Assembly (NCBI GenBank): GCA_902800395.1
Contig: CADCEC010000005.1
Span: 62,001 to 126,000 of the forward strand
Direction of reading: 5' to 3'
Origin: an uncultured Bacteroidota bacterium
Lineage (GTDB): Bacteria; Bacteroidota; Bacteroidia; Bacteroidales; P3
DNA length: 64,000 nt
The notes below the pieces were generated by a model. It did not search any database. It worked only from the letters and a program-made list of their open reading frames with translations, and had not been told where the DNA came from. Positions 2,622-61,034 of this stretch are shown one piece after another (position 1 is the stretch's first letter; every line of letters begins with the position of its first letter). A program made the translations under genes and the position numbers.

Positions 2622-3245
2622 TTATTCTTCAAATTCTATGGTTCCGCGTTGGCGGGTGATACGGAGGTTGGTCATGTTGCCGTCGCTGGTGAAGCCGTCG
2701 CCATAGGTGACGCGGCTGCCGTTGACGGCGCGGACGGGGTTGTGGGAGTAGATGATGTCGTTGTCCGACTCCCACGTGATGTCCTTCAGGTAGACAGTGT
2801 CGTGGGTGCTATAGTCGATGACGACGACGCTGTCGGTGGCAGTGAGGATGTTTTTGTCGTCGTAGGAGGTGGCTTTATTGGCCCGTATCAGCGTCTGCAG
2901 GTGACGGTTCTCGTCGTAGAAACGCAGCTCCACGCCTTTTGGATAGAGGGTGCGTGTGTCGGGCTGGCGGTACTGAACGATGGTGGGGGCGTCGAGTTCG
3001 AGTTGCGGTTTCCCTTCCTCGGTGCGCCAGACGTGGGCGTCTGTGACTTCCTGGTCGGGGGGCTTTTTGCGCTCGAAGCGCTCGATGTCCTTCATGTCGT
3101 AGCCGCAGGAGAACAAAGAGGAAAGAGTAAAGAGTAAAGTGGAAAGAGAGGCTACCGCCTTGGGTAGTCTCTCCACTTTCCACTTTCCACTTTCCACTTT
3201 CACCTTTCTTATCGTGTTCTGACGGTGGTTGTTTCGCCAATCCAT
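2622..3245 (-). CDS. lptC: LPS export periplasmic protein LptC-like lipoprotein
   Basis: 207 residues from the ATG at 3245. LptC bridges the LptBFG pump and LptA in LPS export. The mature part has the beta-jellyroll pattern of Bacteroidota LptC proteins ([20 protein letters not shown], then [11 protein letters not shown]). The N-terminus is odd. Residues 15-46 are encoded by a repeat element ([11 protein letters not shown], then [15 protein letters not shown]), so both the basic and the hydrophobic part of the lipoprotein signal come from repeat DNA; Cys47 is the lipobox Cys. The ATG overlaps the last 12 codons of the upstream TPR gene. A GTG at 3203, just past that gene's stop, is an alternative start. 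The neighbours (barrel, TPR protein, lpxD) match the Bacteroidales envelope cluster. Confidence 0.82.
3114..3204. repeat. GTGGAAA-family repeat, inverted arms, inside lptC
   Basis: The left arm (3114-3150) is made of GAAAGAGTAAAG/GTGGAAAG words. The right arm (3168-3204) is four to five copies of TTTCCAC, the reverse complement. The core between them contains GCTACC and GGTAGT, able to pair. The whole element lies in the signal-peptide part of lptC and is read through without a stop. Confidence 0.85.
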
Positions 3246-4555
3246 CCGGGGACGCGGAAGCTCTTGCCGTTCTCGAGGTTAAGCATGAAGGCCTGAGCGG
3301 TCTTGGGGTAGTGGGAGCTATAGCGTCCGATGAGGGCGTTGCAGGCCTGTACGTTTTCTTCCGAGGGGTCGATGGATTTGGATTTTTGGAGTTTGTCAAC
3401 GGCGGCCCAGTAGGCGCTGCAGCCATTCATGTTGTCTTCAGAGGCGCTGGAGGCGGTGGCGGCATAGAGCTGGGCGATGTAGCGGTAGGGCTCACCCTTG
3501 GTGCGGTCGGCTTCGGCGGCGGAGAGGTAGGCCGAGCGGGCTGCAGAGTAGCTGTTGGTGCTGTTGTAGCAGTGTCCGAGGTAGAGGTAGGCCATGTATT
3601 TATCCTTGCCGGAGAGTTCTTTGGCGGCATCGCGGAGGTAGGAGATGGCGTCGTTGTACTGTTTCTTCGAGAGGCACATCTGGCCCATCAGCATAGCGGT
3701 GGCGGGATTAGGCTCGAGGCGGTAGAGGTTTTCGGTGGCGGAGAAGAAGAGGGGCTGGTCGATGCAGCGTTTCTTTTTCAGGATGCCGGTGATTTTCTTC
3801 AGCAGGTCGATGTTTTCGGGGTCGGCCTCGAACTTTTTGCCGTAGATTTCCACCAGCTGGTCGCAGGTGGCGTAGGGCGAGAAGGCAGCTTCAACGCCGG
3901 CGATGTAGCCACGGATGGTGGCGGCTTTCACGCTGTCGTCGATGTTCTTCTCCAGTTCGGCGTCGAGTTTCTCGCTGGCGATGTCGTAGTTGTCGACCAC
4001 CAATGTGGGTTCGGCTTTACCGGAGCGCACATAGTCGATGGTGGCTTCCATGTATTTCACCAAGTATCCGGCTTCGAGGTCGCCTTCCATCTTGACGGCT
4101 TGGTCATAGAGGGTGTAGTAGCGCTCAAGGCCGTCGTTTTTCAGGATTTCCTGCAGGTCCATAGCCTTTTTGGCGGTCCATTTGGGTCCCTCGCCGTAAG
4201 TGGCAATACGTACGTCGTACATGTGCATGAGTTCATCGACATAAGCGTCGCGCTCGGCCTGGTCTTTTGCTTTGGCAATCATCACGCGCATGATGTTTGC
4301 GCCGTTGTTGTAGAGGTTTTTGCTCTGCTTGGGGCAGTTGGCCACAATTTGTTTCCAGTAGGGGTAGGCTTCTTCCAGCCAGCGGGAGTCTTTGGTGGAT
4401 TTGAATTGTGCGATAGCGTCCTGATAGAGGGACACGGGTTCGAGCATCTGCTGCTGCACCTCTTCGGAGCAGCCCCAGTCGGGGTACTGAGCCATTGCGG
4501 TGGAGCCCATGGCTGCCATGAAGAGTCCAATCGTCAGTGTTTTGATCGTTTTCAT
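3209..4555 (-). CDS. Exported tetratricopeptide-repeat protein
   Basis: 448 residues with a clear signal peptide (MKTIKTLTIGLFMAAMGSTAMAQ). The rest is alpha-helical; TPR-like units are easiest to see between residues 270 and 400 (for example NPATAMLMGQMCLSKKQYND and YLYLGHCYNSTNSYSAARSA). No catalytic motif is seen. The order coaX, outer-membrane barrel, TPR protein, lptC is one I recall from several Bacteroidales genomes, so it is probably a periplasmic scaffold linked to envelope assembly. That role is inference. Its 3' end overlaps the lptC start by 37 bases. Confidence 0.8.
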   Translation of the reverse strand: MKTIKTLTIGLFMAAMGSTAMAQYPDWGCSEEVQQQMLEPVSLYQDAIAQFKSTKDSRWLEEAYPYWKQIVANCPKQSKNLYNNGANIMRVMIAKAKDQAERDAYVDELMHMYDVRIATYGEGPKWTAKKAMDLQEILKNDGLERYYTLYDQAVKMEGDLEAGYLVKYMEATIDYVRSGKAEPTLVVDNYDIASEKLDAELEKNIDDSVKAATIRGYIAGVEAAFSPYATCDQLVEIYGKKFEADPENIDLLKKITGILKKKRCIDQPLFFSATENLYRLEPNPATAMLMGQMCLSKKQYNDAISYLRDAAKELSGKDKYMAYLYLGHCYNSTNSYSAARSAYLSAAEADRTKGEPYRYIAQLYAATASSASEDNMNGCSAYWAAVDKLQKSKSIDPSEENVQACNALIGRYSSHYPKTAQAFMLNLENGKSFRVPGWIGETTTVRTR

Positions 4556-4628
4556 TGTGATTCTATTTTTTATTGTTTTTGTTCTCTGTTTTGCTATTTA
4601 GTATCGTTTAATATTTTTTTCTTGTAAA

Positions 4629-4668: not shown

Positions 4669-6010
4669 TATACCTCCTCTTCACAAACCAGCGTTCACAG
4701 GTGCTCACCGAGATGCCGATGGTGAGACTGTTGCGCTGCAGGAGGTCTTTGTTTCCCAGGCTGCGGTAGCCTACGCTGAGGGTCAGTAGCGAGCGTCCCT
4801 TGCGCATGGGCAGCGTGGCCCCGAGACCGAAACCCCAGGCGTCAATCACCTGCTCTTCTCCGCCAATCATCAGACGCATAAGTCCTTGGTCGGTGTTGAA
4901 GCCAACGCTCCAACTGATACGGCCCCAGTAGGTGGAAGCATCCATCACGCCAATCTTTTCGAATCCCAATACGTAGCGGCTGTAGGGTCCGTAGGTTATC
5001 GCGCTCTCTCCCATGATGGGAGGGTTCACACCCTCGGTGTATTTCATACCGGCCCAACCCGTGAAGGTGGCGTCGGCGGACACACGCCAACTGTCGTTGC
5101 GCTCGAAGCTCAGGCCGATGCCGAAGGTGTGGTCTTGCTCAAGGGTGCTTGTGAACTCCGGCGACTCGCCTGAGGCGGGGAATATCGTGTCGGCTATCGA
5201 TTGGTCGCTGGGGTAGAAAGTATAGATGAGGGCAATGTCGGTGACGTTCATCTTGCGATAGGGCTTGTAGACGAGGCCTACGCCGAGGGTGTAGTTTTCG
5301 CCCAGCGGTTCCCAGTACTGGAGGCCGAGGTCGAAGGTCACATTGCCTACCTTGGTCTCCTTGTAGCGTCGTGAGGGCTTGTAGTGTGTCGAGTCGATAC
5401 TTACAAAGGAATAGGTGATAGCGTGCTGTACGCGGCCGGTGTGATAATTGACGTTGAATCCCAGCTGTAGACGACGTTCCTCCTTGTCTTCGCCCAGAAG
5501 GTTGAAGGCACTGCCCACGAAGGCAATATTCACGCCGCCAGTGCCGTCATAGACGGTCTTCACGATGCTGCTGTCCAAGTACATGCCCTGCGATGTCGAA
5601 GCATAATCCACCGAGGTGTAGTTCAGCAGTCCGCCTCCCAGTTTCCACCAGCTGGTGATGGGCAGGCCGAAGGTGATGTGGCTGATGTTGCCGTCGGCAT
5701 CCTTCACGCTCTTGTCGTTGTTTTGCAGACGTGTCATCTGGATGTTGGCACCCATGTCGAACACAAAACTTTCCGTGCCGATGCTCCCGTAGGAAGCGGG
5801 GTTAAAAGGATTGATGAAGTTGTCGCCCGAAAGGGTGTAGACCACGCCGCCCGTACGGCTGGTCATAGGGATGGTATAAGGCAGGTCGCTGATGCCGATG
5901 CCGAATTGCGAATAGGGCATGTTGAAGCCGTTCTGCGCCTGAGCATTACCCAGTAATCCCATAATGCCCATTAAACTCATTAATCCTATCAAAAAACTCT
6001 TATTTCTCAT
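4664..6010 (-). CDS. Outer-membrane beta-barrel protein (FadL/PorV-like)
   Basis: 448 residues. Signal peptide MRNKSFLIGLMSLMGIMGLLGNAQAQ, then an N-terminal segment (NMPYSQFGIGISDLPY) and many alternating, aromatic-rich strands through the C-terminus, as in barrels of the FadL/long-chain fatty acid transporter type. It follows coaX, whose stop it overlaps by 11 bases, and precedes the TPR protein and lptC. Members of this cluster are usually annotated as putative membrane or hemin-receptor proteins; the transported ligand is unknown. No TonB box or plug domain is seen, so it is not a TonB-dependent receptor. Confidence 0.75.
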   Translation of the reverse strand: MRNKSFLIGLMSLMGIMGLLGNAQAQNGFNMPYSQFGIGISDLPYTIPMTSRTGGVVYTLSGDNFINPFNPASYGSIGTESFVFDMGANIQMTRLQNNDKSVKDADGNISHITFGLPITSWWKLGGGLLNYTSVDYASTSQGMYLDSSIVKTVYDGTGGVNIAFVGSAFNLLGEDKEERRLQLGFNVNYHTGRVQHAITYSFVSIDSTHYKPSRRYKETKVGNVTFDLGLQYWEPLGENYTLGVGLVYKPYRKMNVTDIALIYTFYPSDQSIADTIFPASGESPEFTSTLEQDHTFGIGLSFERNDSWRVSADATFTGWAGMKYTEGVNPPIMGESAITYGPYSRYVLGFEKIGVMDASTYWGRISWSVGFNTDQGLMRLMIGGEEQVIDAWGFGLGATLPMRKGRSLLTLSVGYRSLGNKDLLQRNSLTIGISVSTCERWFVKRRYN

Positions 6011-6752
6011 TGTATATCAGTATCTCGTTCAATCCAATCAATGTTAGGTGCGGCATATGCTCCCAGCCGCCAGCACCTGAGGCCATCAGGCGCTCAGCGT
6101 CGCCGCCGGTGAGAATCACCCGCAAATCTGGGGATTTTTCTTTGTAGAGGGTCACAAATCCCGCCAGCGCCAAAAGTGTCGCACCCAGCGTGCCGGCGAG
6201 GATACTTTCCTCTGTCGAACGTCCCAACACGGGAGCTTTTTCTACCCCTTCAAGGTCTATCAACGGCAGCTTGGCCGTGAAAGTATGCAGCGCCTGCAGG
6301 TTCATCTGCAGACCCGGCATGATGGCGCCGCCGTGATACACACCCGCAGCGTCGACGAAGTCCACAGTGATGCAGGTGCCGGCATCGATGACGAGGCAGG
6401 CCTCGCCGGGGTGCAGGCTCACCGCCCCGCAAGCATCGGCGATGCGGTCGGCCCCCAGCGTCTCAGGGGTCTTGTAATCCAACTTTATTGGCAGCGGAGT
6501 GGATGAGGTCAAAGTGGAAAACGGAAAGCGGAAAGTGGAAAGCATAGATACCACCTCCGGATTCTCTCCGCTGGCACACACCATTGCTCTGTCAATATTA
6601 GTGGCCGGTGGCAGGCAGTTAGTGGTCTGCGTGCCACCGATGTTTTCGGTAGCCTCGTTTTCCACTTTCCACTTTCCACTTTCCACTAAGGACCTCCCTT
6701 CGAAGGTGGCCCATTTCACGGCGGTGTTCCCTATGTCCAGCGTCAAATTCAT
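6000..6752 (-). CDS. coaX: Type III pantothenate kinase CoaX
   Basis: Phosphorylates pantothenate, the first step of coenzyme A synthesis. 250 residues with the type III motifs: LDIGNT at 5-10, TLGADR at 98-103, IDAGTC at 122-127 and GGAIMPG at 141-147. Between the first two motifs the protein is atypical: residues 22-33 ([12 protein letters not shown]) and 70-82 (MLSTFRFPFSTLT) are encoded by two GTGGAAA-type repeats in opposite orientation. They replace the variable loop without disturbing the conserved motifs, so the enzyme is probably active. The start overlaps the pth stop (ATGA). Confidence 0.93.
   Translation of the reverse strand: MNLTLDIGNTAVKWATFEGRSLVESGKWKVENEATENIGGTQTTNCLPPATNIDRAMVCASGENPEVVSMLSTFRFPFSTLTSSTPLPIKLDYKTPETLGADRIADACGAVSLHPGEACLVIDAGTCITVDFVDAAGVYHGGAIMPGLQMNLQALHTFTAKLPLIDLEGVEKAPVLGRSTEESILAGTLGATLLALAGFVTLYKEKSPDLRVILTGGDAERLMASGAGGWEHMPHLTLIGLNEILIYNEK
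6510..6543. repeat. GTGGAAA-family repeat arm inside coaX (left)
   Basis: Words GTGGAAAAC, GGAAAGC, GGAAAGT, GGAAAGC in tandem. On the minus strand it is read in frame as STFRFPFSTLT of CoaX. It is the inverted partner of the arm at 6657-6687; 113 bases carrying real CoaX sequence lie between them. Confidence 0.85.
6657..6687. repeat. GTGGAAA-family repeat arm inside coaX (right)
   Basis: Four copies of TTTCCAC after CTCGT. Read on the minus strand as [11 protein letters not shown] of CoaX. The same bases with the same CTCGT/TTCGT edge occur in cysS at 59931-59968, where the peptide is [12 protein letters not shown]. Confidence 0.9.
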
Positions 6753-7441
6753 AAACTCCTTATCTCCTTATCTCCTGTCTCCTTATCTCCCTCTGCATGT
6801 GCGTTGCCCTTCTTGTTATACAGATTCATCGTGCGGTCGATGCCCTGGGTGACGAAACATTTGATGGCGTCGCCGGCTGTCTTTACGGCTTCCTCCATCT
6901 TCGCCAGGTCCTCACCCTCGATGCGCCCCAGCACATAATCCACTTGGTGACCACGGCCGAAGCTGCTTCCCACACCCATGCGCAGGCGGTTGTAGTTCTG
7001 CGTGCCTAGCAGAGCCTCGATGTCCGTGAGGCCGTTGTGGCCGCCGGCACCGCCCTGTTTCTTGATGCGCACAATGCCGGGGTCGAGGGCCAGGTCGTCG
7101 ACGATGACCATGAGGTTCGCAAGTTCTATCTTCTCGGCCTGCAGCCAGTATTTCACGGCTTTGCCGCTGAGGTTCATGTAGGTGGTGGGTTTGATGAGCA
7201 CCAGGATGCGACCCTTGTGGCGTATCTCGGTGCGGTAGGCGTGGCGCTCTAGGCTCCAGCGCGCCTCGGCCTCTTTGGCCAGCGCGTCGACCACCATGAA
7301 GCCCGCATTGTGGCGCGTGCCTTCGTATTCGGCACCCACATTGCCCAGTCCCACTATGAGAAATTTGCTCACAGGCTCTTCTATTGATTCTTTGCAATCT
7401 TCTCTTTTACAATATGATATAATCTTCCCGAGAAGGCTCAT
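6749..7441 (-). CDS. pth: Peptidyl-tRNA hydrolase
   Basis: Releases peptides from peptidyl-tRNA that has dropped off the ribosome. From the ATG at 7441 it has 230 residues. The motifs FLIVGLGNVGAEYEGTRHN, IKPTTYMNLSGKAV and GGAGGHNGL hold the family's active-site Asn, His and Asp positions. A 23-residue extension (MSLLGKIISYCKREDCK...) precedes the usual start; a GTG at 7372 gives the standard N-terminus (VSKFLIVGLGN). A TTG at 7462 is unlikely because it overlaps the promoter -7 element. The C-terminus (EGDKETGDKEIRSL) is encoded by an 8-base repeat (GGAGATAA words), a repeat-derived tail. Confidence 0.92.
   Translation of the reverse strand: MSLLGKIISYCKREDCKESIEEPVSKFLIVGLGNVGAEYEGTRHNAGFMVVDALAKEAEARWSLERHAYRTEIRHKGRILVLIKPTTYMNLSGKAVKYWLQAEKIELANLMVIVDDLALDPGIVRIKKQGGAGGHNGLTDIEALLGTQNYNRLRMGVGSSFGRGHQVDYVLGRIEGEDLAKMEEAVKTAGDAIKCFVTQGIDRTMNLYNKKGNAHAEGDKETGDKEIRSL
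6757..6792. repeat. TTATCTCC-word repeat at the pth 3' end
   Basis: Four successive TTATCTCC/TCCTGTCTCC words with period about 8. They encode the last residues of Pth on the minus strand. A perfect array would hit TAA within 24 bases; a one-word change (GAGACAGG) keeps it open. Confidence 0.75.
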
Positions 7442-17185: not shown

Positions 17186-17196
17186 CACCGTCAAAG

Positions 17197-17291
17197 AGAG
17201 CATAGGGGTGCTCTTATGTTGCTCGGAATGAGCACAAAGAAGCTGAGAACATACCCTAAAAACTTGATCCGGATAATGCCGGCGTAAGGAA
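17197..17291 (+). promoter_or_regulatory. TPP riboswitch (THI element)
   Basis: Contains the conserved TPP aptamer pieces in order: GGGGTGC (17205-17211), CTGAGA, ACCC, and CTTGATCCGGATAATGCCGG leading to GTAAGGA. The aptamer ends about eight bases before the ATG of the receptor gene, leaving no room for a separate terminator. Control is therefore probably at translation initiation, or on the coupled downstream genes. It places the three following genes under thiamine pyrophosphate repression. Confidence 0.95.
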
Positions 17292-17298
17292 TTGAATT

Positions 17299-19530
17299 AT
17301 GAAACACAACTTTTATAGCTGTGGCCGCTATCTCCTTTATAAGGCCACCAGGATTAGCCGCAAGCAGATGATAGCCTGCTGCGTTTTTGGTATTTCACTT
17401 TTCACTTTTCACTTTCCACTTTCCGCTCAGGATACCGTCCGCCGTCTCGACGAGGTGATTATCCAGGACGTGCGTGTCAACAACAAGACACCGCTAACTA
17501 CCAGCACCCTCGACCTGAAGGAACTCGACGACGCCCGTGCCAGCATCAGCATGCCCTACATGCTCGAGACGCAGACCTCCGTGGTGGCCAGTGGCGAGAA
17601 CGGCGGCGTGGGTGCCGCCTACATCCGCATCCGCGGTGTCGACGCCTCGCGTATCAATGTTAATATTAACGGCATCACGCTCAACGACCCCGAGAGCCAG
17701 CAGGTCTATTGGTACAACATCCCCAACCTCGGCGGCATGGCCCAGAGCCTGCAGATACAGCGCGGCGTGGGAGCCTCCACAGGCGGCAGCCCCGCCTTCG
17801 GCGCCGCCATCAACCTGCAGACCCTCAACGCCCGCGATCGCGCCTACGGCGAGGCCGACCTCGGCTTCGGCAGCTGGAACACACGCCAGTACAGCGTCAG
17901 CGCCGGTACGGGTATCATGAAGAGCGGACTTTCCTTCGACTTCGCCTACAGCGGCCTCACCTCCGACGGCTATATCCGCAGTTGGGGCACCGACCAGCAG
18001 AGCTTCTTCGGCAGCGCCAGCTGGTACGGCAAGAAGACCTTTATAAAACTCCTCACCATCATCGGCAGCCAGACCACCGGCATCACCTGGGACGGCGCCT
18101 ACGACTACCAGCTCGACGAAGACCCCACCTACAACCCCAGCGGCGAGTACACCATGGACGGAAACACCATGTACTACCCCAACGAGACCGACAATTACTG
18201 GCAGCGCCACTACCAGCTCTATATCTCGCACCTGCTTACCGACCAGTGGAGCATCCACGGCGCCCTCGACTACACCCACGGCGACGGCTACTACGAGCAG
18301 TACAAAGCCAACAAGAAGTTCAGCAAGTATGGCCTCTCCCTCAGCGGCAAGAGCGACTTCATCACCCGCAAGGAGATGGACAACGACGCCCTCACCGGTA
18401 ATCTCGCCTTGCACTATGACGGCGAGAAGCTCTCCTTCTCGCTTGGCGACCACCTGCTCTACTTCGACGGCTACCACTTCGGCAACGTCCTATGGTGCCG
18501 CGACACTGCCGCCCATATCAAAGACTATGAGTGGTACCGCTACAACGGCACCAAGGTCGACAACGCCGTTTACGCCAAAGCCGCCTACGACTTCTCCGAC
18601 GACTTCAACGCTTACGCCGACCTCCAGCTTCGCACGGTGAACTACAAGCTCCGCGGCGACGCCGACGACCTCTTCACCATGGACTTCGACCAGGACTACC
18701 TCTTCTTCAATCCCAAGGCCGGCATCAACTACCGCATCAACGGCAACCAGCGCACCTACTTCGTGGCCGGCATCTCCAACCGCGAGCCTACCAAGAGCGA
18801 CATCAAGGACGCCATCGGCCGCAACGACACCGTGAAGGCCGAGACCATGCTCGACCTCGAGCTGGGCTACCAGCTGGCTTACAACCGCTGGGCCTTCAAC
18901 GTGAACCTCTACGGCATGTTCTACAAAGACCAGCTCACCCCCAGCGGTGACCTCAGCAGCAGCGGCTACGCCCTCATGGAGAATGTCGACAAGAGCTACC
19001 GCATCGGTATCGAACTCGAGGGCGGATACATGTTCACCGACTGGTTCCGCATGGACGCCAACCTCACGCTCAGCCAGAACAAGGTGCTCGACTACACTTT
19101 CGCCGACTTCGCCGACGGCGACGCCGACCCCAACCTCGTCACCCGCACCACCGACCTGGCTCTCTCGCCCAATATCGTGGGCGCCGCCATCGCCACCTTC
19201 GTCCCCATAAAGAACGGAAAACTGCAACTCATCGGGAAATATGTTGGCAAACAATATGCCGACAACACCAGTCGCGAGTGCTACGCCATCGACCCCTACT
19301 TCCTCCTCAACGTCAAAGCTTCCTACACATGGAAACTCAAAGGAACCAACGAAATCGAAGCCCAGCTGCTTGTCAACAACCTCCTCGACCACCACTATCG
19401 CCTCAGTGCATGGGTGGGTGACTGGGTTGATGACTGGAGCGGTCCTGCGGCAGCTTACTACTACCACGACCGTGCTTGGCTCCAGCAGCCCGGCATAAAC
19501 TTCATGGCCAGAGTAATTTATAGATTCTAA
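17299..19530 (+). CDS. TonB-dependent outer-membrane receptor, thiamine uptake
   Basis: 743 residues. A plug domain (ARASISMPYMLETQTSVV, YIRIRGVDASRINVNINGI, NLGGMAQSLQIQRGVGAS) is followed by a 22-strand-type barrel ending in FMARVIYRF. Thiamine specificity is inferred from the TPP riboswitch directly upstream and from pnuT and thiamine pyrophosphokinase downstream, an arrangement known for Bacteroidota. The signal peptide is repeat-encoded: FGISLFTFHFPLSAQ comes from TTTCACTTTTCAC words at 17392-17427. The start may be the ATG at 17299 or the one at codon 24 (MIACCVFG). Its stop overlaps the pnuT ATG (TAATG). Confidence 0.9.
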   Translation: MKHNFYSCGRYLLYKATRISRKQMIACCVFGISLFTFHFPLSAQDTVRRLDEVIIQDVRVNNKTPLTTSTLDLKELDDARASISMPYMLETQTSVVASGENGGVGAAYIRIRGVDASRINVNINGITLNDPESQQVYWYNIPNLGGMAQSLQIQRGVGASTGGSPAFGAAINLQTLNARDRAYGEADLGFGSWNTRQYSVSAGTGIMKSGLSFDFAYSGLTSDGYIRSWGTDQQSFFGSASWYGKKTFIKLLTIIGSQTTGITWDGAYDYQLDEDPTYNPSGEYTMDGNTMYYPNETDNYWQRHYQLYISHLLTDQWSIHGALDYTHGDGYYEQYKANKKFSKYGLSLSGKSDFITRKEMDNDALTGNLALHYDGEKLSFSLGDHLLYFDGYHFGNVLWCRDTAAHIKDYEWYRYNGTKVDNAVYAKAAYDFSDDFNAYADLQLRTVNYKLRGDADDLFTMDFDQDYLFFNPKAGINYRINGNQRTYFVAGISNREPTKSDIKDAIGRNDTVKAETMLDLELGYQLAYNRWAFNVNLYGMFYKDQLTPSGDLSSSGYALMENVDKSYRIGIELEGGYMFTDWFRMDANLTLSQNKVLDYTFADFADGDADPNLVTRTTDLALSPNIVGAAIATFVPIKNGKLQLIGKYVGKQYADNTSRECYAIDPYFLLNVKASYTWKLKGTNEIEAQLLVNNLLDHHYRLSAWVGDWVDDWSGPAAAYYYHDRAWLQQPGINFMARVIYRF
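17392..17427. repeat. TTTCCAC-family repeat in the receptor signal peptide
   Basis: Words TTTCAC, TTTTCAC, TTTTCAC, TTTCCAC and TTTCCGC. They encode the hydrophobic core of the signal peptide (LFTFHFPLS), the opposite-strand reading of the VESGKWK heptapeptide. Confidence 0.8.
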
Positions 19531-20165
19531 TGGAATTTTCAATTTTTGAAATCATCGGCGCAGTCATCGGTCTGTTCTATATTGTCAGCGAATATAGGGC
19601 GGACCGGTGGTTCTGGCCGCTCTCGCTGCTGATGTCGGCCTTTTATGCCGTCATCGACTTCGCCTCAGGCATCTATGCCAATGGCGCCATCTGCGTCTAC
19701 AATTTCGTGATGTCCATCTACGGCATCCTCGTCTGGCGCGGTATCATCCAGAAACGCAAGGAAGACCAGGGCGGCGAGCGTCATATCTCCTCCTGTCCTC
19801 GTGCCTACTGGTGGCAGATCATCACCGTCATCGTGGCGCTCAGCGTGCTGCTCACCTGGCAGCTGGGATTCCTCAATCAGAGCATCTACACGCTGCCTAG
19901 CGGACGCACCATCAACCTCTCGCTCCTCGACGGCATCTCATCGGCACTCACCATCGTCGGCATGCTCATGCTGGCGCACAAATGGTGGCAGCAGTGGTTC
20001 TGCTGGATGATTGTGGAACCCTTGATGATAGTCATCTTCTGGCTCACCGGCAACTACGCCTCCGCAGCTCTCTACGCTGTCTTCGAAGTCTTTTGCATAC
20101 TTGGTGTAATAAAATGGAGGAAAGAAGCCCTCAAGCAATCAGACAATCAAACAATCAAGCAATGA
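19530..20165 (+). CDS. pnuT: Inner-membrane thiamine transporter PnuT (PnuC family)
   Basis: 211 residues, about seven membrane helices, with the PnuC-family motif region (ADRWFWPLSLLMSAFYAVID and KWWQQWFCWMIVEP). PnuC-type carriers work by facilitated diffusion, with trapping by phosphorylation. Here the next gene is the pyrophosphokinase, so the substrate is thiamine rather than nicotinamide riboside. Both ends overlap neighbours (TAATG with the receptor, ATGA with the kinase). The C-terminal tail (KQSDNQTIKQ) is encoded by a CAATCAAA-word repeat. Confidence 0.9.
   Translation: MEFSIFEIIGAVIGLFYIVSEYRADRWFWPLSLLMSAFYAVIDFASGIYANGAICVYNFVMSIYGILVWRGIIQKRKEDQGGERHISSCPRAYWWQIITVIVALSVLLTWQLGFLNQSIYTLPSGRTINLSLLDGISSALTIVGMLMLAHKWWQQWFCWMIVEPLMIVIFWLTGNYASAALYAVFEVFCILGVIKWRKEALKQSDNQTIKQ
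20135..20162. repeat. CAATCAAA-word repeat at the pnuT 3' end
   Basis: CAAGCAATCAGACAATCAAACAATCAAGCAAT-type words, period 8, encoding the last residues of PnuT. The same family occurs at 30206-30255, 35940-35972 and 51841-51872. Confidence 0.8.
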
Positions 20166-20818
20166 ACATTGTCATCCTTGCCGCCGGCGACTTCCCTACG
20201 CACCCCATCCCCCTCAGAGCCTTGCAGGAGGCCGACTTCGTAGTCTGCTGCGACAGTGCCTATGAGGCAATTAGGAATGAGGAATTAGGAATTAGGAATT
20301 ATGTGGTGGTAGGAGATGGGGATTCGTTGTCTGAACAAGACAAAACCGCCCTCGGCGACCGCTGGATTCATGTCGCCGAGCAGGACTACAACGACCTCCA
20401 CAAAGCCATGTGCTGGGCTACCGAAAAATTGTCAATTTTCAATTCTCATTTTTCAATTTTAGGAGCCTCCGGCAAACGCGAGGACCACACCCTCGGCAAC
20501 ATCTCCTATCTGGCCACCTTCTCCGAGGAGTACCCCGGCATCGACCTCGAGATGCTTACCGACTACGGCCGCTTCACCATTCAGAATTCACCATTCAAAA
20601 TTCAAAATTACAAAAGCTTCCCCCGCCAGCAAGTCTCCCTCTTCACCCTCGACCCCCGTACTCGCGTCACCGCCACCGGCCTCCAGTGGCCCCTTAATGA
20701 CGCCACTCTCGCCCCTTGGTGGCAGGGTACGCTCAACTCTGTACTTTCCGACTCCTTCACCCTCTCTTCCGACGGTCCCCTCCTCGTTTTCCAGACCTAC
20801 GACCCAAAGCCTCTGTAA
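20162..20818 (+). CDS. Thiamine pyrophosphokinase
   Basis: Converts imported thiamine to thiamine pyrophosphate, closing the uptake route and feeding the riboswitch. 218 residues with the family motifs: CCDSA at 29-33, GDGDSLSE at 51-58, EQDYNDLHKA at 73-82, GASGKREDHTLGN at 101-113 and RQQVSLF at 155-161. Three stretches between motifs are repeat-encoded: AIRNEELGIRNY (36-47), LSIFNSHFSIL (90-100) and FTIQNSPFKIQNY (138-150). They sit where relatives have variable loops or strands, and every motif is intact, so it should be functional. Confidence 0.92.
   Translation: MNIVILAAGDFPTHPIPLRALQEADFVVCCDSAYEAIRNEELGIRNYVVVGDGDSLSEQDKTALGDRWIHVAEQDYNDLHKAMCWATEKLSIFNSHFSILGASGKREDHTLGNISYLATFSEEYPGIDLEMLTDYGRFTIQNSPFKIQNYKSFPRQQVSLFTLDPRTRVTATGLQWPLNDATLAPWWQGTLNSVLSDSFTLSSDGPLLVFQTYDPKPL
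20267..20301. repeat. AATTAGGA-word repeat in thiamine pyrophosphokinase
   Basis: GCAATTAGGAATGAGGAATT and two more copies, period 8. A perfect array would read TAG; the variant word AATGAGGA keeps the frame open. Confidence 0.85.
20429..20461. repeat. CAATTTTC-word repeat in thiamine pyrophosphokinase
   Basis: TTGTCAATTTTCAATTCTCA then TTTTTCAATTTTA; encodes LSIFNSHFSIL, which leads straight into the conserved GASGKREDH motif. Confidence 0.85.
20575..20611. repeat. ATTCAAAA-word repeat in thiamine pyrophosphokinase
   Basis: CACCATTCAGAATTCACC then ATTCAAAATTCAAAATTAC, period 8 to 9; encodes FTIQNSPFKIQNY between the TDYG and QQVSLF motifs. Confidence 0.85.
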
Positions 20819-20825
20819 AAAATAT

Positions 20826-20856
20826 TTTGTCATGTCGCGATGTTTTTGTATTTTTG
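20826..20856 (+). promoter_or_regulatory. Promoter of purD
   Basis: TTTG at 20826-20829, 19-base spacer, TATTTTTG at 20849-20856: the best match in the window to the Bacteroidota TTTG/TAnnTTTG pair. The purD ATG follows 35 bases on. Confidence 0.8.
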
Positions 20857-20891
20857 CATTTTAATTGTAAAAACAAAAACAACGTAACGAG

Positions 20892-22208: not shown

Positions 22209-23116
22209 GAGTCAACAGGAACATAGCTATCGGACATTTGGCGGCGGCAGCCGCCTATGTCATCTTCGGCATCAACGTAGTGGTATGCCGCGATATCGCC
22301 ATTGAAGGCCATGTGGAACCCATCGTGCTCTTCTCTATGCGCGCTCTCGTGGCTGGCGCACTCTTCTGGCTCCTCTCTTTCTTCTCCCCCAAAGAGCATG
22401 TGCCGCCCAAAGACCTGCTGAAGCTCTTCGGTGCCGGCATCATCGGACTTTTCCTTCCCCAGCTCACCTTCCTTCACGCCATTGCCCACACTACGCCTGT
22501 CGACCTCTCGGTGATGAGCACTACGACCCCCATCTTCACCATGTTCGTCGCAGCCATCTTCCTCAAAGAGCCCATCACCTGGAAGAAAGCCCTCGGTGTG
22601 GCCCTCAGCTTTGGTGGCATCCTCTGGCTTATCCTGCAGAGCACCTTCGGCGGACACGGTCCTTCCGAAACGGAACCCATCGGCATCATGTTCTGCTTCG
22701 CCAACTATATCGTCTTCGCCCTCTACCTCGGCACCTGCCGCAACCTCATCGCCCGCTATTCCGTCGTCACCTCCATGAAGTGGATGTTCCTCGTCTCCTT
22801 CCTCGTCTCGCTACCCTTCAGTATTCCTAAGCTGCCGGCCACTGAGTTCGCCCTTGTCTCCACCCAGGTGTGGTGGGAGATAGGTTTTATGATTATTTTC
22901 TCCACCTTCATTGCCTACTACCTTATCCCCGCCGCCCAGCAGCGCATACGTCCCACGCTGGTGAGCATGTATGGCTACCTGCAGCCTATCATCGCCATTG
23001 CAGCTGCCATCTGGACTGGTCTCGACCGCATCACCCTCACCAAACTCGTCGCCGCCCTCCTCGTCTTCACTGGCGTCTGGGTCGTCAACCAGAGCCGCGC
23101 AGCGGTACAAAAATAA
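22205..23116 (+). CDS. EamA-family (DMT) inner-membrane transporter
   Basis: 303 residues, ten predicted membrane helices in two EamA repeats (for example HLAAAAAYVIFGINVVVCRD near the start, with a matching second half from about 155). Substrate unknown; the family exports metabolites or drugs. The start must be the TTG at 22205, which overlaps the purD stop (TTGA), since no in-frame ATG exists before the first helix. Coupled translation with purD is likely. Confidence 0.88.
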   Translation: MRVNRNIAIGHLAAAAAYVIFGINVVVCRDIAIEGHVEPIVLFSMRALVAGALFWLLSFFSPKEHVPPKDLLKLFGAGIIGLFLPQLTFLHAIAHTTPVDLSVMSTTTPIFTMFVAAIFLKEPITWKKALGVALSFGGILWLILQSTFGGHGPSETEPIGIMFCFANYIVFALYLGTCRNLIARYSVVTSMKWMFLVSFLVSLPFSIPKLPATEFALVSTQVWWEIGFMIIFSTFIAYYLIPAAQQRIRPTLVSMYGYLQPIIAIAAAIWTGLDRITLTKLVAALLVFTGVWVVNQSRAAVQK

Positions 23117-23120
23117 TTCT

Positions 23121-24707: not shown

Positions 24708-24745
24708 AAAAGAACCTAAGAGTACAAAAAGATAACAATAACACC

Positions 24746-26862: not shown

Positions 26863-26885
26863 ACTTTAAACGTTAAACTTTATTC
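26863..26885. repeat. TTTAAACG-word repeat
   Basis: ACTTTAAACGTTAAACTTTA fills the 31-base gap between apbC and the NifU-like gene. It is related to the TTTAAAG family at 36817 and 61779. Confidence 0.65.
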
Positions 26886-36257: not shown

Positions 36258-36820
36258 AAACCCGTACGATAATAGCACTCTTGGCCCTGCTTCTTGTGGG
36301 CGGCGCGGCGGCGTGGAAGTTCATTCCGCACACGCTGAGCCACGACGAGTGCAGCGACGTCTACCGCCACTTTGCCGACATGCGGCTGGAGGGGGTGCGC
36401 GTCACATACGTACAGGACAAGGTAATCAACGACACTCTGCGACTCCCGGTCACCGAGCTCGAAGCCGAGACGGATCGCGGCTGGCAGCAGATTGACAGCC
36501 TATATGGAATATCGAGGAATTTGGATGCACTGCTTAACAATCCCGACATACCCGACGATGTGAAAGAAACATTCAGAGACAAAGAGGCCGCAGGGGTGAG
36601 TGTCAGGACTGCCCACCGCGAGACGCCGGAGAAGTCAATTGGGTTCGATGACCCACGTCCCGACGATGTCCAGGTATATATCTATCCACTGCTCCGCGTC
36701 GTCTGCATATTCGAGACCGGTAACGTGAAGAGCAATCGCGATGCCCTGATGGATGTCGCTTGGGACAAGGTGGATTCTATCGACGCAGCAATGAAAACGA
36801 AAACGATAACCAAACGTTAA
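36254..36820 (+). CDS. Membrane-anchored protein, function unknown
   Basis: 188 residues with an N-terminal signal anchor (IIALLALLLVGGAAAWKF) and a periplasmic helical domain. No motif is recognised. It is coupled to the preceding gene by ATGA and belongs to the sigma-factor operon. Confidence 0.6.
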   Translation: MKTRTIIALLALLLVGGAAAWKFIPHTLSHDECSDVYRHFADMRLEGVRVTYVQDKVINDTLRLPVTELEAETDRGWQQIDSLYGISRNLDALLNNPDIPDDVKETFRDKEAAGVSVRTAHRETPEKSIGFDDPRPDDVQVYIYPLLRVVCIFETGNVKSNRDALMDVAWDKVDSIDAAMKTKTITKR

Positions 36821-36848
36821 ACCTTAAACGTTAAACCTTAAACACATC
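36817..36848. repeat. TTAAACG/TTTAAAG-word repeat
   Basis: CGTTAAACCTTAAACGTTAA then ACCTTAAAC between the sigma-operon end and the next gene; the array begins with the stop codon (TAA) of the preceding gene. Confidence 0.75.
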
Positions 36849-56168: not shown

Positions 56169-56209
56169 CAAACTTTTTTATAAATACATTGTTCCTTGAA
56201 AAAAAATCG

Positions 56210-56217
56210 TATTTTTG
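56210..56217 (+). promoter_or_regulatory. Promoter -7 element of the NUDIX gene
   Basis: TATTTTTG followed by CATTTC, 20 bases upstream of the ATG at 56238. Confidence 0.65.
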
Positions 56218-56237
56218 CATTTCAAAACCGGAGACAG

Positions 56238-56729
56238 ATGGCAACAGAAGGGAAATACATTTATGATTATCCGCGGCCGATGCTGACGGCCGACTGCATG
56301 GTGGTAAACGACCGCAACGAGGTGCTACTGGTGCGGCGAGGCAACGACCCCTATAAAGGGTGTTGGGCACTTCCGGGCGGTTTTATGGAGATGGACGAGA
56401 CCCTCGAGCATTGCGCTGTCCGTGAACTCGAGGAAGAGACGGGTCTGAAGGTCGACGAGCAGGATATCCGCCTGATAGGTGTCTACAGTGCCCCCGACCG
56501 CGACCCGCGAGGCCGAACGGTGACAGCGGCGTATGCTGTAAGTAGAAAGTGGGAATCAGCACCCCGAAGGGGAACTGAACACCTTGGAAAAGAAAAAAAA
56601 TGTAGTGAAGAAATCGGAAAACCCGTGGCTGGCGATGATGCTGCCGAAGTTCGTTGGTGGCCTCTTAACGCGCTTCCTAAACTGGCTTTCGACCACGCTC
56701 AGATTGTGTCAGACGGACAGCGATTGTAA
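56238..56729 (+). CDS. NUDIX hydrolase with an in-frame repeat insertion
   Basis: 163 residues from the ATG at 56238. The NUDIX box is GGFMEMDETLEHCAVRELEE, then ETGL (about 51-74). It hydrolyses a nucleoside diphosphate derivative. After TVTAAYAV the sequence leaves the family: RKWESAPRRGTEHLGKEKK and CSEEIG (about 102-126) come from an inserted repeat (56539-56610), then family sequence resumes at KPVAGDDAAEVRWWPL. Conserved parts are intact, so activity is likely. The 3' end overlaps the convergent PHP gene by 21 bases. Confidence 0.85.
   Translation: MATEGKYIYDYPRPMLTADCMVVNDRNEVLLVRRGNDPYKGCWALPGGFMEMDETLEHCAVRELEEETGLKVDEQDIRLIGVYSAPDRDPRGRTVTAAYAVSRKWESAPRRGTEHLGKEKKCSEEIGKPVAGDDAAEVRWWPLNALPKLAFDHAQIVSDGQRL
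56539..56610 (+). repeat. CCCCGAAGGGG-type repeat in the NUDIX gene
   Basis: GTAAGTAGAAAGTGGGAATC, then AGCACCCCGAAGGGGAACTG and AACACCTTGGAAAAG. It shares the CGAAGGGGAACTGAACACCT core with 41900 and 42022. Here the inserted length keeps the reading frame open. Confidence 0.75.
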
Positions 56730-57549: not shown

Positions 57550-58792
57550 AAAAGGCATACGTCATGCTGAGTGAGAGGCGCAGGTTCCCGACAGGTTCGT
57601 CATATCCGGCGCGGGTATATTCTGCCTCGCCGGTGAAGGAGAGACCGTTACCGGTCAGATAGGTCAGTCGCGGCTGGATGCGCCAGAGGTACTCTATGTC
57701 GTGACCGCGGCCGAAGCAGTGGACGAAGTTGGCGTTGCCATAGTCGAGGTTTTTGGCAAAGCCAAGGAAGATTCCTGGTCGCCAATGTCCGTTGTTACGC
57801 TCGATATCGAGCCAGACGGTGTTGAAATGCCAGTCCTTGAAGGTGCTGTCGGCCAGCATCAAGTAGCCGCCAAGGGAGCAGCCTTCGTAGAGGCTGTTGT
57901 TGAGAAGGGTCTGGGCTTTGAAGGTAACGGGACCAATGTTGGCTTTGCCGAAGAGAGACCAAGAGAAGGAGGAGTAGAGGTCGGTGGAGGGTTGCTCGGT
58001 GGTGTAAACCGTCTGTACTTGAGGCTGGATGGTCTTGAGGTTGACGGCAGCACCGAAGAAGATATCTTCTCCACGGAAACGCAGCTGGGCGTTCAACTCT
58101 GGTACAAGACTGTGGCGGGTGAAGAGGGTGCTGGAGGCGGGAGCGCCATTGAGGAGTCCCTGGCTCATATTGTCGAGCTGCCAGGAGGCAGCAGCCACGA
58201 ACTCGATGCCGAGAAAGTAATACTCATAGCGCACTTGCGGCTGACGGGCATAGCAGTGGAAGGGAGCACCCATGTTCAGCGGGTTGGTCATCGGCATAAT
58301 CTCATGGATGACCATGGGGTACCAGTATTGGCCAGCCAGCAGTCGGTGGCTAGAGATGAGGACATCATATTCGCGGGAGCCTTTTGAGATTTTGCGACGG
58401 TTTTCCCATAGCATGTCAATGTAAGCATGCCTCAACCGCAGGTCGTTGATGGTGGCGTTGGTCGAGCCGGTGAAGTCGCCCTCGATATAGGCGGAGGTTT
58501 TAGCCCCCAGCATCTCGGGCCCCGTGATGCGGAGTCCCAGGCGGGCGGTGATGGCCAACATATCGGCCTGCCAGCCGTCGTTGATGTCGTTGCCGAGACT
58601 GTCGCGCAGGATGGGCTTGGGGTAGAAGAGCATCATGTCCTCGCGTCCACCTACCACCGAGCGGCTGTCAGCGTAATAGTGGGGATTGACGAAACCGTGC
58701 CAATCCAAGCTGAAGCCCTGAGCACGTATAGTTCCTATGGTACCTATAGTGACTATAGCTACTATAGCCACCATCTTCCCTATCTTTTTCAT
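57548..58792 (-). CDS. Outer-membrane beta-barrel protein
   Basis: 414 residues from the ATG at 58792. Strands alternate through to NLRLSLSMTYAF, and the part after the signal (FSLDWHGFVNPHYYADSRSV) is barrel-like. The signal peptide (MVAIVAIVTIGTIGTIRAQG) is encoded by a 9-base repeat of CTATAGTN words (58727-58772), period nine, so it keeps its frame. Coupled to the preceding membrane-protein gene by ATGA. The transported substrate is unknown. Confidence 0.78.
   Translation of the reverse strand: MKKIGKMVAIVAIVTIGTIGTIRAQGFSLDWHGFVNPHYYADSRSVVGGREDMMLFYPKPILRDSLGNDINDGWQADMLAITARLGLRITGPEMLGAKTSAYIEGDFTGSTNATINDLRLRHAYIDMLWENRRKISKGSREYDVLISSHRLLAGQYWYPMVIHEIMPMTNPLNMGAPFHCYARQPQVRYEYYFLGIEFVAAASWQLDNMSQGLLNGAPASSTLFTRHSLVPELNAQLRFRGEDIFFGAAVNLKTIQPQVQTVYTTEQPSTDLYSSFSWSLFGKANIGPVTFKAQTLLNNSLYEGCSLGGYLMLADSTFKDWHFNTVWLDIERNNGHWRPGIFLGFAKNLDYGNANFVHCFGRGHDIEYLWRIQPRLTYLTGNGLSFTGEAEYTRAGYDEPVGNLRLSLSMTYAF
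58727..58772. repeat. 9-base CTATAG repeat in a signal peptide
   Basis: TATAGTTCCTATGGTACC, then TATAGTGACTATAGCTAC and TATAGCCACC. Period nine, so it is frame-preserving, unlike the 7- and 8-base families. It encodes the hydrophobic signal core AIVAIVTIGTIGTI. Confidence 0.8.
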
Positions 58793-59490
58793 TTCTTGCT
58801 TCCTCCGGCCAGTGCGAGAATGAGTCCCAGGGCCACGCCCAACAACGCGGCAAAGAGCACCTGGAAGGTGGCGGGCAGAATGAAGGTGATGGTGTGCATC
58901 GGGAACCAGAAGAGCGGGATGGTCTTCTTGATGACGAGGTTCCACTGCACATCCCAGTTGACCTTCTTGCTGATAATCTCACGCATCTTCATCGGACGCA
59001 GCAGTCCACGCACAGTGCCGCCGTTGTCGGTGATATGGATGTCGGTGCACTTGTGGAAGGTCATCATCACTGGGGCGAAAATGCTGTTCATCAGCACACT
59101 GACAGCGAAGGCTACACCGAGTTTCGTCAACGTGAAGTCTCCTTTGAGCACACCAGAAAGGTCACAATCAAAAACACCTCCAAGGAAGGCGGGGACGCCG
59201 ACCTTAAAGATAGTCATGGACATGGCGATGCACATGCCGAGGAATCCCCACACCATCATGCGAGGCAGCACGCCGAAGCCCTTCTCGTTATAGACACCCT
59301 TGCGGATGCGCAGGGCGAGGCATTCGCCGAGAGTGGCAAGAATGGCGAACTTAAAAAAGGCCATGATGTAGGGATGTCCGGTAGGACCTGACATCTTCTC
59401 AAACCACTCAAAGAAGCCCGTAGCGGGAATAAAGAACGGCGTCAACACAACGATGACGCAAAGAATAAGTATCCAGTCTCCTTTTTTCAT
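58789..59490 (-). CDS. Multi-helix inner-membrane protein
   Basis: 233 residues, about five membrane helices (for example WILILCVIVVLTPFFIP and FQVLFAALLGVALGLILALA). Motifs AFFKFAILATLGECLA and MNSIFAPVMMTFHK recall small membrane proteins of the Mpv17/PMP22 type, but I am not sure. Function unknown. ATGA overlap with the downstream barrel gene suggests joint use. Confidence 0.65.
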   Translation of the reverse strand: MKKGDWILILCVIVVLTPFFIPATGFFEWFEKMSGPTGHPYIMAFFKFAILATLGECLALRIRKGVYNEKGFGVLPRMMVWGFLGMCIAMSMTIFKVGVPAFLGGVFDCDLSGVLKGDFTLTKLGVAFAVSVLMNSIFAPVMMTFHKCTDIHITDNGGTVRGLLRPMKMREIISKKVNWDVQWNLVIKKTIPLFWFPMHTITFILPATFQVLFAALLGVALGLILALAGGSKK

Positions 59491-59521
59491 ATAACTCTTA
59501 ACTTTTAACTCTTAACTTATA
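59491..59521. repeat. TTAACTC-word repeat
   Basis: ATAACTCTTAACTTTTAACT, then CTTAACTTATAA across the gap between cysS and the membrane-protein gene, reaching into the cysS stop. Confidence 0.75.
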
Positions 59522-61034
59522 ACTGCCACGTCGCGCCGTCTTTGCCGTCCTTGACGGTGACGCCGGCCTCCTTGAGAGCATCGCGAATCTTGTCGCTGGT
59601 GGCCCAGTCCTTGTTGGCTTTGGCGGTGGCGCGGATATCGAGAATGATATGCATCAGGCCGTCGATGAGGGCGGTGTTGTCGCTTGCAGCTTCGTCTTTC
59701 ATACCCATGATATCGAAGAGGAAGGTATCGAAGATGCCCTTCAGTTCGTCGATGTCGGCCTGCGTGAGTTTTATCTTGCCGTCGTTGGCCTGGTTGATGA
59801 TGCGGGCGGCGTCGAAGAGGTGGCTGATAACGATAGGCGTGTTGAAGTCGTCGTTCATAGCCTCGTAGCAATTGCTTCGCAAAGTGGAAAGTTGAGAGTG
59901 TAAAGTGGAAAGTTCTCCGCTTGCGGCAGCTTCGTTTTCCACTTTCAGTTTTCCACTTTCCACTTTCTTGTAGGCTTCCATCAGTTTAGCGAAACCTTTC
60001 TCGGAGGCCTGCAGGGCCTCGTTGCTGAAGTCGACAGTGCTGCGGTAGTGGGCCTGGAGGATGAAGAAGCGGATGGTCATAGGCGAGTAGGGCTGCTCGA
60101 GCATCTCCTTGCCGTCCTTGTCCTTATGGCTGCCGGTGAAGAACTCGTCGAGGGTGATGAAGTTGCCCAGCGACTTGCCCATCTTCTGGCCATTGATGGT
60201 AATCATGTTGTTGTGCATCCAGTAGCGGCAGGGAGCGTGACCTGTGGAGGCTACGCACTGCGCTATCTCGCTCTCATGGTGCGGGAAGACGAGGTCCATG
60301 CCGCCACCGTGGATGTCGAAGGGCGAACCCAGGTATTTGGCGCCCATCGCCGTGCATTCGGCATGCCAGCCGGGGAATCCGTCGCTCCAGGGCGAAGGCC
60401 ATCGCATGATATGTTCGGGGGCGGCCTTCTTCCACAAGGCGAAGTCGCCACTGAAGCGCTTCTCGTCCTGTCCGTCGAGCTCGCGCGTGGTGGCCAGCAT
60501 CTCTTCGATGACGCGGCCGCTAAGCTGGCCATATTTATGGGTGTCCTCCTGGTATTTGCGCACATCGAAGTAGACGCTGCCATTCGAGACATATGCGTAT
60601 CCAGCATCGAGAATCTGCTGCACGAGGGCTATCTGCTCCATGATGTGGCCGCTGGCGTGAGGCTCAATGCTGGGGGGCAGCACGTTGAGGCGCTCCATGG
60701 CGGCATGGTAGCGGTTGGTGTAGTACTGTGCCACCTCCATGGGTTCCAACTGCTCGAGGCGGGCCTTCTTGGCAATCTTGTCCTCACCCTCGTCGGCGTC
60801 ATGCTCGAGGTGTCCCACGTCGGTGATGTTGCGCACATAACGCACCTTGTAGCCGAGGTGGCGCAGGTAGCGGAAGACCACGTCGAAGGTGATGGCGGGA
60901 CGGGCGTGACCCAGATGGCCGTCACCATAGACGGTGGGTCCGCAGACATACATGCCCACATGGCCCTCATTAATCGGTCGGAAGAGTTCCTTCTGCCGAC
61001 TTAAAGTATTGTATATTAATAACTGCTGTTCCAT
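59517..61034 (-). CDS. cysS: Cysteinyl-tRNA synthetase with a repeat-encoded segment
   Basis: 505 residues. Class I motifs GHLGHARP (HIGH-like, 39-46) and KMGKS at 284-288. Zinc site from MYVCGPTVY (Cys31), WHAECTAMG (Cys227) and PHHESE (His252, Glu256). Residues 356-388 ([32 protein letters not shown]) are encoded by an inverted GTGGAAA element at 59880-59968, and normal sequence resumes at CYEAMNDDF. The insertion lies in a segment that varies in length between species, so function is expected. Confidence 0.95.
59880..59968. repeat. GTGGAAA-family repeat with inverted arms, inside cysS
   Basis: The left arm (59880-59912) has AAAGTGGAAAGTTGAGAG and a further copy. The right arm (59931-59968) has GTTTTCCACTTTCAG and three TTTCCAC. 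The core contains CCGC-TT-GCGG, a self-pairing stem, so the whole looks like an arm-hairpin-arm element. Confidence 0.9.

Follow-up and report, generated by a model that had tools for sequence, protein, structure and literature searches.

GTGGAAA arrays within genes of an uncultured Bacteroidales bacterium and the period-7 repeats of its genus

GTGGAAA arrays in the window

We analysed a 64,000-nucleotide stretch of DNA (hereafter the window; contig C5, positions 62001-126000) from the 2.41-Mb draft genome, in 21 contigs, of an uncultured Bacteroidales bacterium (G000; other G numbers denote its relatives), in which tandem arrays of the heptamer GTGGAAA lie inside unrelated genes. These arrays belong to a genus-wide population of short period-7 arrays whose favoured unit differs by species. 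The initial annotation had reported them in lptC, coaX, a thiamine receptor gene and cysS, and all were present as placed: the window holds 17 matches to (GTGGAAA)2 with at most two mismatches, against 0.39 expected, a number reached in none of 100 shuffles. Every GTGGAAA array of the window sits in an open called gene, and Pfam backs the hosts as LptC, Pan_kinase, TonB receptor and Cys-tRNA ligase. The name thiamine receptor is supported by the thiamine pyrophosphate (TPP) riboswitch upstream of the TonB receptor gene (table 1).

The inventory itself stood for the listed arrays, with some refinements. The unit in the TonB receptor is mostly TTTCACT, with TTTCCAC also present. In lptC and cysS, the two arrays are the arms of a single inverted pair. 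An additional insert lies in a NUDIX gene, where a dispersed 54-bp element that we call core B follows a degenerate GTGGAAA unit at 56542-56555. The two arrays in coaX are distinct inserts, and the 116 bp that separate them encode CoaX sequence.

Table 1. Repeat arrays, host genes and associated features, in window coordinates
Feature	Position	Strand	Remarks
lptC, inverted-pair element near N-terminus	2622..3245	-	Pfam PF06835; aligned with 9 relatives
lptC pair, G-rich arm (GTGGAAA/GAGTAAA units)	3115..3146	+	
lptC pair, 22-bp core agaggctaccgccttgggtagt	3147..3168		Alignable with cores of other G000 copies and of five relatives
lptC pair, C-rich arm (TTTCCAC units)	3169..3208	-	
coaX (type III pantothenate kinase), two separate arrays	6000..6752	-	Pfam PF03309
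coaX GTGGAAA array	6511..6542	+	Translation LSTFRFPFSTL
coaX second GTGGAAA array	6659..6687	-	
TPP riboswitch upstream of TonB receptor	17194..17307	+	Rfam RF00059, 61.9 bits
Period-7 array in TonB receptor (17299-19530)	17393..17427	-	N-terminal signal-peptide-like stretch
Period-7 array, unit AATTAGG	20262..20301		Tandem-repeat scan
Period-7/14 array, AAACGTT/AAACCTT	36812..36843		
Core B (dispersed 54-bp element)	56559..56614	+	Inside NUDIX gene (56196-56729)
Period-7/14 array TATAACTCTTAACT	59490..59524		Bridges cysS end and start of next minus-strand open reading frame (58789-59490)
cysS, carries inverted-pair element	59517..61034	-	Pfam PF01406/PF09190
cysS pair, G-rich arm	59881..59913	+	
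cysS pair, 22-bp core	59914..59935		Reverse strand acgaagctgccgcaagcggaga
cysS pair, C-rich arm	59936..59967	-	
Period-7 array, unit TAAAGTT	61776..61810		

Another array, CTCCTTAT, lies at 6756-6790, immediately 5' of the coaX start codon. Its coding-strand sequence, GGAGATAAGGAG, forms several tandem Shine-Dalgarno-like motifs; the phylum is said to use few Shine-Dalgarno motifs. A perfect 24-bp tandem duplication at 33604-33651 sits between two plus-strand open reading frames (ORFs).

Period-7 arrays across the genus

Gene context was read in samples of genomes; for G000 this was a 459-kb sample of 20 stretches plus the window, in which genes called by a simple script cover 83% of the sequence. 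Exact matches to (GTGGAAA)2 in the whole genome number 179, compared with 9 for a reversed control word (genome counts of this kind include overlapping matches). Perfect tandem repeats of periods 2-6 total one in the sample, those of period 7 number 49 and those of period 14 number 38. When the GTGGAAA copies were classified as coding or not, as the initial annotation had proposed, 48 of 59 arrays fell inside called genes. Approximate period-7 arrays of any unit number 134, with 65 genic and 69 intergenic, although at least one of those scored intergenic (C1:77148) actually lies within a Pfam-recognised response regulator. GTGGAAA-like units are mostly genic (44, with 7 intergenic), and other period-7 units mostly intergenic (62, with 21 genic). 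What had been described as one repeat is one species' dominant member of a large period-7 family. On contig C1 of G000, a single called ORF of about 17 kb (18608-35995) has similar words recurring within it.

As first described, the array translates as VESGKWK whichever frame of one strand is read, and as TFHFPLS on the other strand, again in all three frames; a perfect GTGGAAA array can encode only VESGKWK or STFHFPL, taken cyclically. That the unit is stop-free in genes was also borne out in the sample. Period-7 units without stops on either strand account for 43 genic and 8 intergenic arrays and other units for 22 and 61, an excess that is partly circular because a gene call requires an open frame. 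As the reason why the repeat is tolerated, stop-freedom survives in part: it permits coding copies, but it is not special, being shared by 590 of 1170 heptamer classes (82 of 294 among classes with G or C only). Freedom from stops is a filter that allows coding copies and not a cause.

GTGGAAA arrays are about 32 bp each, and 43 of 59 measure 28-36 bp. Perfect units make up 142 of the 239 within them, and changes fall mainly in GTGG and seldom in AAA. In 114 of 134 period-7 arrays, and in 32 of the 43 distinct units, the unit has G or C but not both, a pattern that periods 9 and 11 do not show; both bases occur in 10 of the 43 distinct units where 17 were expected, and 15 of 2000 simulations gave a number as low. 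Period 7 is also the commonest perfect tandem-repeat period in the relatives sampled (L203-L222). In the same sample, periods 11 and 22 come next after 7 and 14. Approximate period-11 arrays in the G000 sample were intergenic in 23 of 23 cases.

Within the genus, a (GTGGAAA)2 match was present in 18 of 37 genomes (G000 included), as against 1 of 24 from other families. Counts per genome are uneven: 179, 44, 44, 38, 28 and 21, with the rest at 9 or fewer. A scan of named genomes returned arrays in many phyla among the matches listed, and GTGGAAA arrays therefore occur elsewhere too. PurL identity reached 82-87% in six of 20 named genomes tried, all of them Bacteroidales or Bacteroidetes records, among them RUG12171, RGIG4882 (roe deer rumen), RUG134 and RUG12038. 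The GTGGAAA 21-mer was found on three contigs (L106, L157 and L160) of one Candidatus Peregrinibacteria genome, JACPMB01, one contig of which has nine units consecutively, and this genome is a possible second lineage rich in GTGGAAA. The 21-mer also occurs in 15 stretches of viral contigs. A 14.8-kb contig filed as viral (L189; IMGVR_UViG_3300028549_004239) contains four such 21-mers, including a G-rich-first inverted pair; its DNA is possibly bacterial.

Species preferences were counted as exact double heptamers on both strands, with GGTGAAA taken from the reversed-control columns. The units GTGGAAA, GGTGAAA, AAAATTG and GTGGAGA number 179, 9, 17 and 3 in G000; 38, 113, 19 and 1 in G036; 2, 39, 99 and 34 in G002; 28, 0, 47 and 70 in G007; and 44, 2, 34 and 19 in G012. 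In G061, AAAATTG alone numbers 152. The units thus counted overlap between species and are exclusive to none.

We then compared 15 orthologous sites. The relatives gave 129 states, of which 80 were empty, 19 GTGGAAA-like (one mismatch tolerated) and 30 occupied by another repeat; denominators vary by site, as only relatives with loci at hand were matched, and PurL site 722, read by eye, stands outside these counts. The lineage-by-lineage gain expected at the outset is borne out by these states. The initial annotation had also named ancient conserved peptides and misassembly as findings that would count against its reading. Because the relatives' sites are empty, GTGGAAA-like or filled by a different repeat, the peptides are neither: they are not present in relatives as conserved sequence, and repeats occupy these segments in many genomes that were assembled independently. 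Although the genome is a 21-contig draft, a single read could span arrays of about 32 bp, and we consider assembly error extremely improbable. Repeat sites common to species are far above chance, because the background in relatives is only 54 period-7 arrays in 400 kb. Such sharing could come from tolerant segments, common descent or attraction between arrays.

The host segments vary between species in length and sequence, and they lie in unrelated proteins. In CoaX, segment 1 measures 40 residues in G000 against 23-36 in the relatives matched, five of five of which have no array there; segment 2 is without an array in seven of eight. At UbiE (a presumed gene name, as are GlnRS and ispE), the array of site 1 is absent in 8 of 10 relatives, replaced by GTGGAGA in G022 and reversed in orientation in G012. 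UbiE site 2 is 15 residues long both in G000 and in four of four array-free relatives matched, and this unchanged length means that the array replaced native residues. At the CysS site, G000 has the inverted pair, and G002, the sole relative matched, has a 9-bp repeat. MurD, whose Mur ligase domains are recognised by Pfam, has five array sites; the fifth is occupied by CTTTCCA in G000, CACTCAT in G002, AATTTTC in G007, TTTCAGT in G009 and an 8-bp unit in G025. Close MurD pairs are probably separate arrays with native sequence between them, as in CoaX. PurL segments that carry GTGGAAA in some species hold 9-bp or CTAG-rich repeats, or no repeat at all, at the equivalent position in others, so the invasion is wider than period 7. 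Two 9-bp families occur in PurL of relatives (L052-L080), CCCATTAAA translated PIKPI and GGACCTTAA translated KDLKD.

Retention of the arrays for a function, for example in protein contacts made by VESGKWK segments or in translation control, has one point in its favour: the TonB receptor N-terminus carries a period-7 array in four of four species, with another unit in three of three relatives. However, peptide, orientation and presence differ between species at one site, and arrays occur on both strands, with 34 of the 53 genic or edge ones in gene sense (counted from the array list); we regard retention for function as very improbable.

Arrays might instead have grown in place by slippage from chance seeds in tolerant segments, their likeness reflecting a bias to stop-free, strand-asymmetric heptamers. 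Heptanucleotides are reported as the commonest long simple repeats in most genomes surveyed, which was tied to the polymerase footprint (Mrazek 2007, as given in PMC4679880), and the prevalence of period 7 in our relatives and the unit-like seed at UbiE site 2 agree with growth in place. However, a genome has one prevailing unit at unrelated loci and its relatives prefer other units, which is not the picture of local derivation; both orientations occur at one site; and core B, which is no tandem repeat, travels with arrays. We consider local slippage unlikely as the main source.

Inverted pairs and core B

Neighbouring GTGGAAA arrays no more than 250 bp apart in the G000 sample are oriented +- in 11 cases, -+ in none, -- in three and ++ in two. 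Close inverted period-7 pairs of any unit (arms no more than 70 bp apart, one unit mismatch allowed) have the G-rich arm first in 12 of 12 cases in G000, which overlap the +- set, and in 7 of 7 in relatives (19 of 19). Opposite-strand pairs of one heptamer within 200 bp, read by eye, are also G-rich first in 24 of 24 cases in relatives and 4 of 4 in G000, among the matches listed. A looser pair in the window (20427-20609; gap 112, two mismatches) is C-rich first. Pairs with a short core cover some 60-100 bp, and single arrays are numerous.

The fixed period, strand asymmetry and polarity are what telomere-like addition would predict, as in vertebrate loci whose interstitial telomeric repeats contain telomerase-RNA pieces (TERC-ITS loci; PMC8537989) and as in the DRT10 system. 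A reverse transcriptase with a 7-nucleotide template would extend the 3' ends of broken DNA by G-rich heptamers; the joining of two such ends would give a G-rich-first pair, one extended end a single array, and a change of template a change of unit. The polarity of the close and the wider pairs, the units with G or C but not both and the narrow range of array lengths all favour this account. So do two precedents: DRT10 makes tandem-repeat DNA from variable non-coding RNA templates (PMC12632851), and vertebrate interstitial telomeric repeats are held to enter at breaks, sometimes head-to-head (PMC8537989). If it were true, the fixed period, units with G and no C, uniform length, head-to-head polarity and template-flank-like cores would all follow.

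The reverse transcriptase domain RVT_1 is present in 16 of 41 genus genomes and was found in neither of the array-rich G007 and G025, which are incomplete drafts. The sole G000 reverse transcriptase best matches the PADLOC models RT-Protease_XI and RT-TIR_XII, which we take to be retron types; whether PADLOC holds a DRT10 model was not established. This gene lies at C1:142710-143267 (L226) in an ORF of more than 830 aa that adjoins a 252-aa ORF. No template RNA turned up, although whole genomes were not systematically searched for one. Same-length replacement and the period-9 families in the same segments do not follow from end addition, shared cores need extra steps, and the looser window pair has the opposite polarity. 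We judge telomere-like addition quite unlikely, and it is distinctly improbable that the arrays are interstitial telomere-like repeats, the footprints of a break-healing, repeat-adding enzyme with a 7-nucleotide template differing by species.

Paired copies resemble one another beyond their arms. Nineteen of them (4 from G000, 15 from five relatives) align over arms and core with the consensus CGATGCTGCCGCA, the relatives' copies having been picked by BLAST, and whole pairs match between genomes at 72-86%. The core word TGACGCA occurs near arrays in G000 10 times, compared with 1.18 expected. Such alignments would suit small palindromic transposons, similar to miniature inverted-repeat transposable elements (MITEs) or REPINs, with heptamers as arms, mobilised in trans by a transposase of the Y1 or another type and leaving single arrays as halves or remnants. 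The Y1_Tnp domain is indeed present in six of six genomes with at least 20 GTGGAAA 14-mer matches, but the link is weak because 22 of the 31 other genus genomes carry it too. It was found in 29 of 41 genomes in all and not in G009 (7 GTGGAAA matches) or G008 (3); the two G000 matches are on contigs C12 and C3, away from the window contig. Inverted arms are present in part of the copies. The cores moreover vary within G000, many single arrays have no core, the orthologous sites that were read yielded no target-site duplication, and replacement without added length is not transposition. Palindromic transposons seem an unlikely source. Neither the presence of a reverse transcriptase nor that of a Y1 transposase cleanly tracks array load.

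Core B shows copying most directly. This 54-bp segment, CACCCCGAAGGGGAACTGAACACC...AGTGAAGAA, is embedded in arrays and occurs at 10 places in G000, with 8 of the 10 copies at 94-100% identity to the query copy (query counted). Nine copies lie in ORFs of 181-709 aa, namely ubiE, a GHMP kinase gene (by Pfam), the NUDIX gene of the window and six others, and one is without a long ORF. The genic copies are read in one frame in six of nine cases and in another in three of nine, and none is read in the stop-bearing third. Core B has been copied at the DNA level between unrelated genes, in two reading frames, which agrees with the original idea of a spreading repeat. Of 41 genus genomes, 15 have a match. 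The heptamers beside core B are GTGGAAA in G000, AAAATTG or AAAGGTG in G002 and AAAATTG in G015, and many copies in other species are without them. One G000 copy (L316:1442-1497; C5:42245) has neither heptamers nor a long ORF and is followed by a T run; it could be a free-standing RNA gene and a source copy.

Compensatory changes back a CCCC/GGGG hairpin and a second short stem in core B. In an alignment of 24 of the 31 located copies, 98.4% of cells are paired and double-change cells number 10, compared with 1.6 after shuffling, with none of 500 shuffles as high; these cells count sequences and not events. The test is favoured by the alignment, because seven near-duplicates or misfits were left out (L311, L286, L302, L293, L307, L298 and L291). 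RNAalifold alone gave the first hairpin only, and Rfam had no match at the element in six loci at E up to 5. Phage and plasmid origins of core B were rejected: viral contigs held no exact 22-mer, and a plasmid search was without a match.

Proposed ectopic copying and known systems

Period-7 arrays are thus sometimes paired, sometimes nested with a small element and, in relatives, replaced by other repeats at the same site. We propose that the GTGGAAA arrays are this species' version of genus-wide small dispersed repeats, spread by ectopic copying into tolerant segments, and put the probability at about 0.48, slightly short of even. What moves would be some 32 bp of period-7 DNA, single, as a G-rich-first inverted pair or around the 54-bp element. 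A nascent or broken strand would pair briefly with an array elsewhere, copy about 30 bp, sometimes with the embedded element, and return; the copied DNA would overwrite or lengthen the host segment, and selection would retain in-frame, stop-free, harmless products. GTGGAAA-like units, open on both strands, would accumulate in genes and stop-bearing units stay intergenic because selection keeps open frames. The host segments are presumably tolerant loops; the CoaX structure prediction (mean predicted local distance difference test score, pLDDT, 51.9 with 9 sequences) was set aside.

Core B shows that DNA is copied between loci, and the species unit preferences support this. Ectopic copying with selection fits same-length replacement, both orientations, the hitchhiking of core B and the weak transposase link. 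Several points weigh against it. Copying alone leaves period 7, the units with G and no C and the G-rich-first polarity unexplained. No junction captures a copying event in progress, and no donor and recipient were identified for a plain array. Some arrays begin where native codons resemble the unit, as at UbiE site 2, so local expansion may contribute. Evidence for a common core is also reduced by the ascertainment bias of the BLAST-picked copies, by the many single arrays that lack a core, by the weak enrichment of TGACGCA near arrays in relatives (2 vs 0.5, p 0.09) and by the conserved 15-bp core word GCTGCCGCACCCGGA, which showed no excess over shuffled words in the G000 sample.

Taken together, these results suggest that copying is still under way and rewrites stretches of protein. 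Short repeats alter segments of proteins of core metabolism, the cell wall and translation; the change is made in the DNA and differs from one species to the next. With empty sites as the comparison, the arrays form a natural experiment in how coding sequence tolerates repeat invasion. The period of 7, the strand asymmetry and the fixed polarity offer a testable lead to the unexplained abundance of bacterial heptamer repeats.

A search of the literature at hand returned no paper on the array peptides or array sequences; among the matches listed, the nearest work on heptamer, tandem or palindromic repeats in Bacteroidales or Bacteroidetes is MacGregor 2015 and Klein 2015. The TAACTGA heptamers of Beggiatoaceae, Cyanobacteria and Bacteroidetes are genome-wide 7-bp direct repeats of patchy distribution whose mechanism is given as unknown; they lie mostly upstream of start codons, their author holding that stops limit coding copies (PMC4679880). 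That family has one unit, whereas the arrays here are mostly genic, of many units and partly in inverted pairs. GGGAATC heptamers of Xanthomonas and Nostoc are similarly dispersed and commonly four units long (PMC4692102). The BrickBuilt MITE of Porphyromonas gingivalis is likewise a Bacteroidales element with tandem repeats and inverted ends, but its unit is 23 nt and it is always intergenic (PMC4596501). REPINs also consist of paired inverted repeats forming hairpins, but REPs are described as extragenic and tied to a RAYT gene (PMC3116915), unlike the genic copies and weak transposase link here. Tandem repeats are shared with DRT10, telomerase and vertebrate TERC-ITS loci, some of the last with head-to-head polarity at joined breaks (PMC12632851, PMC8537989), whereas here no matching reverse transcriptase or template RNA was found, with no whole-genome template search made.

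The nearest kin appear to be the Rickettsia palindromic elements (RPEs) and the small dispersed repeats (SDRs) of Nostoc that are found with heptamers. RPEs are short palindromic DNA of about 150 bp that lie in frame in many unrelated genes, are read along with the host gene and each have a conserved peptide (PMC10969869). The arrays share with them in-frame copies within unrelated ORFs, as seen in the genic majority of the GTGGAAA arrays, but have period-7 arms, a short variable core and a unit that changes by species in place of a palindrome of about 150 bp and a family-conserved peptide. Nostoc SDRs (Elhai et al. 2008) are reportedly small structured elements of 21-27 nt embedded in tandem heptamers. 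Core B is longer, at about 54 bp, and most of its copies here are coding, but it resembles them in being structured, as its compensatory changes indicate, and in lying within tandem heptamers in G000, G002 and G015.

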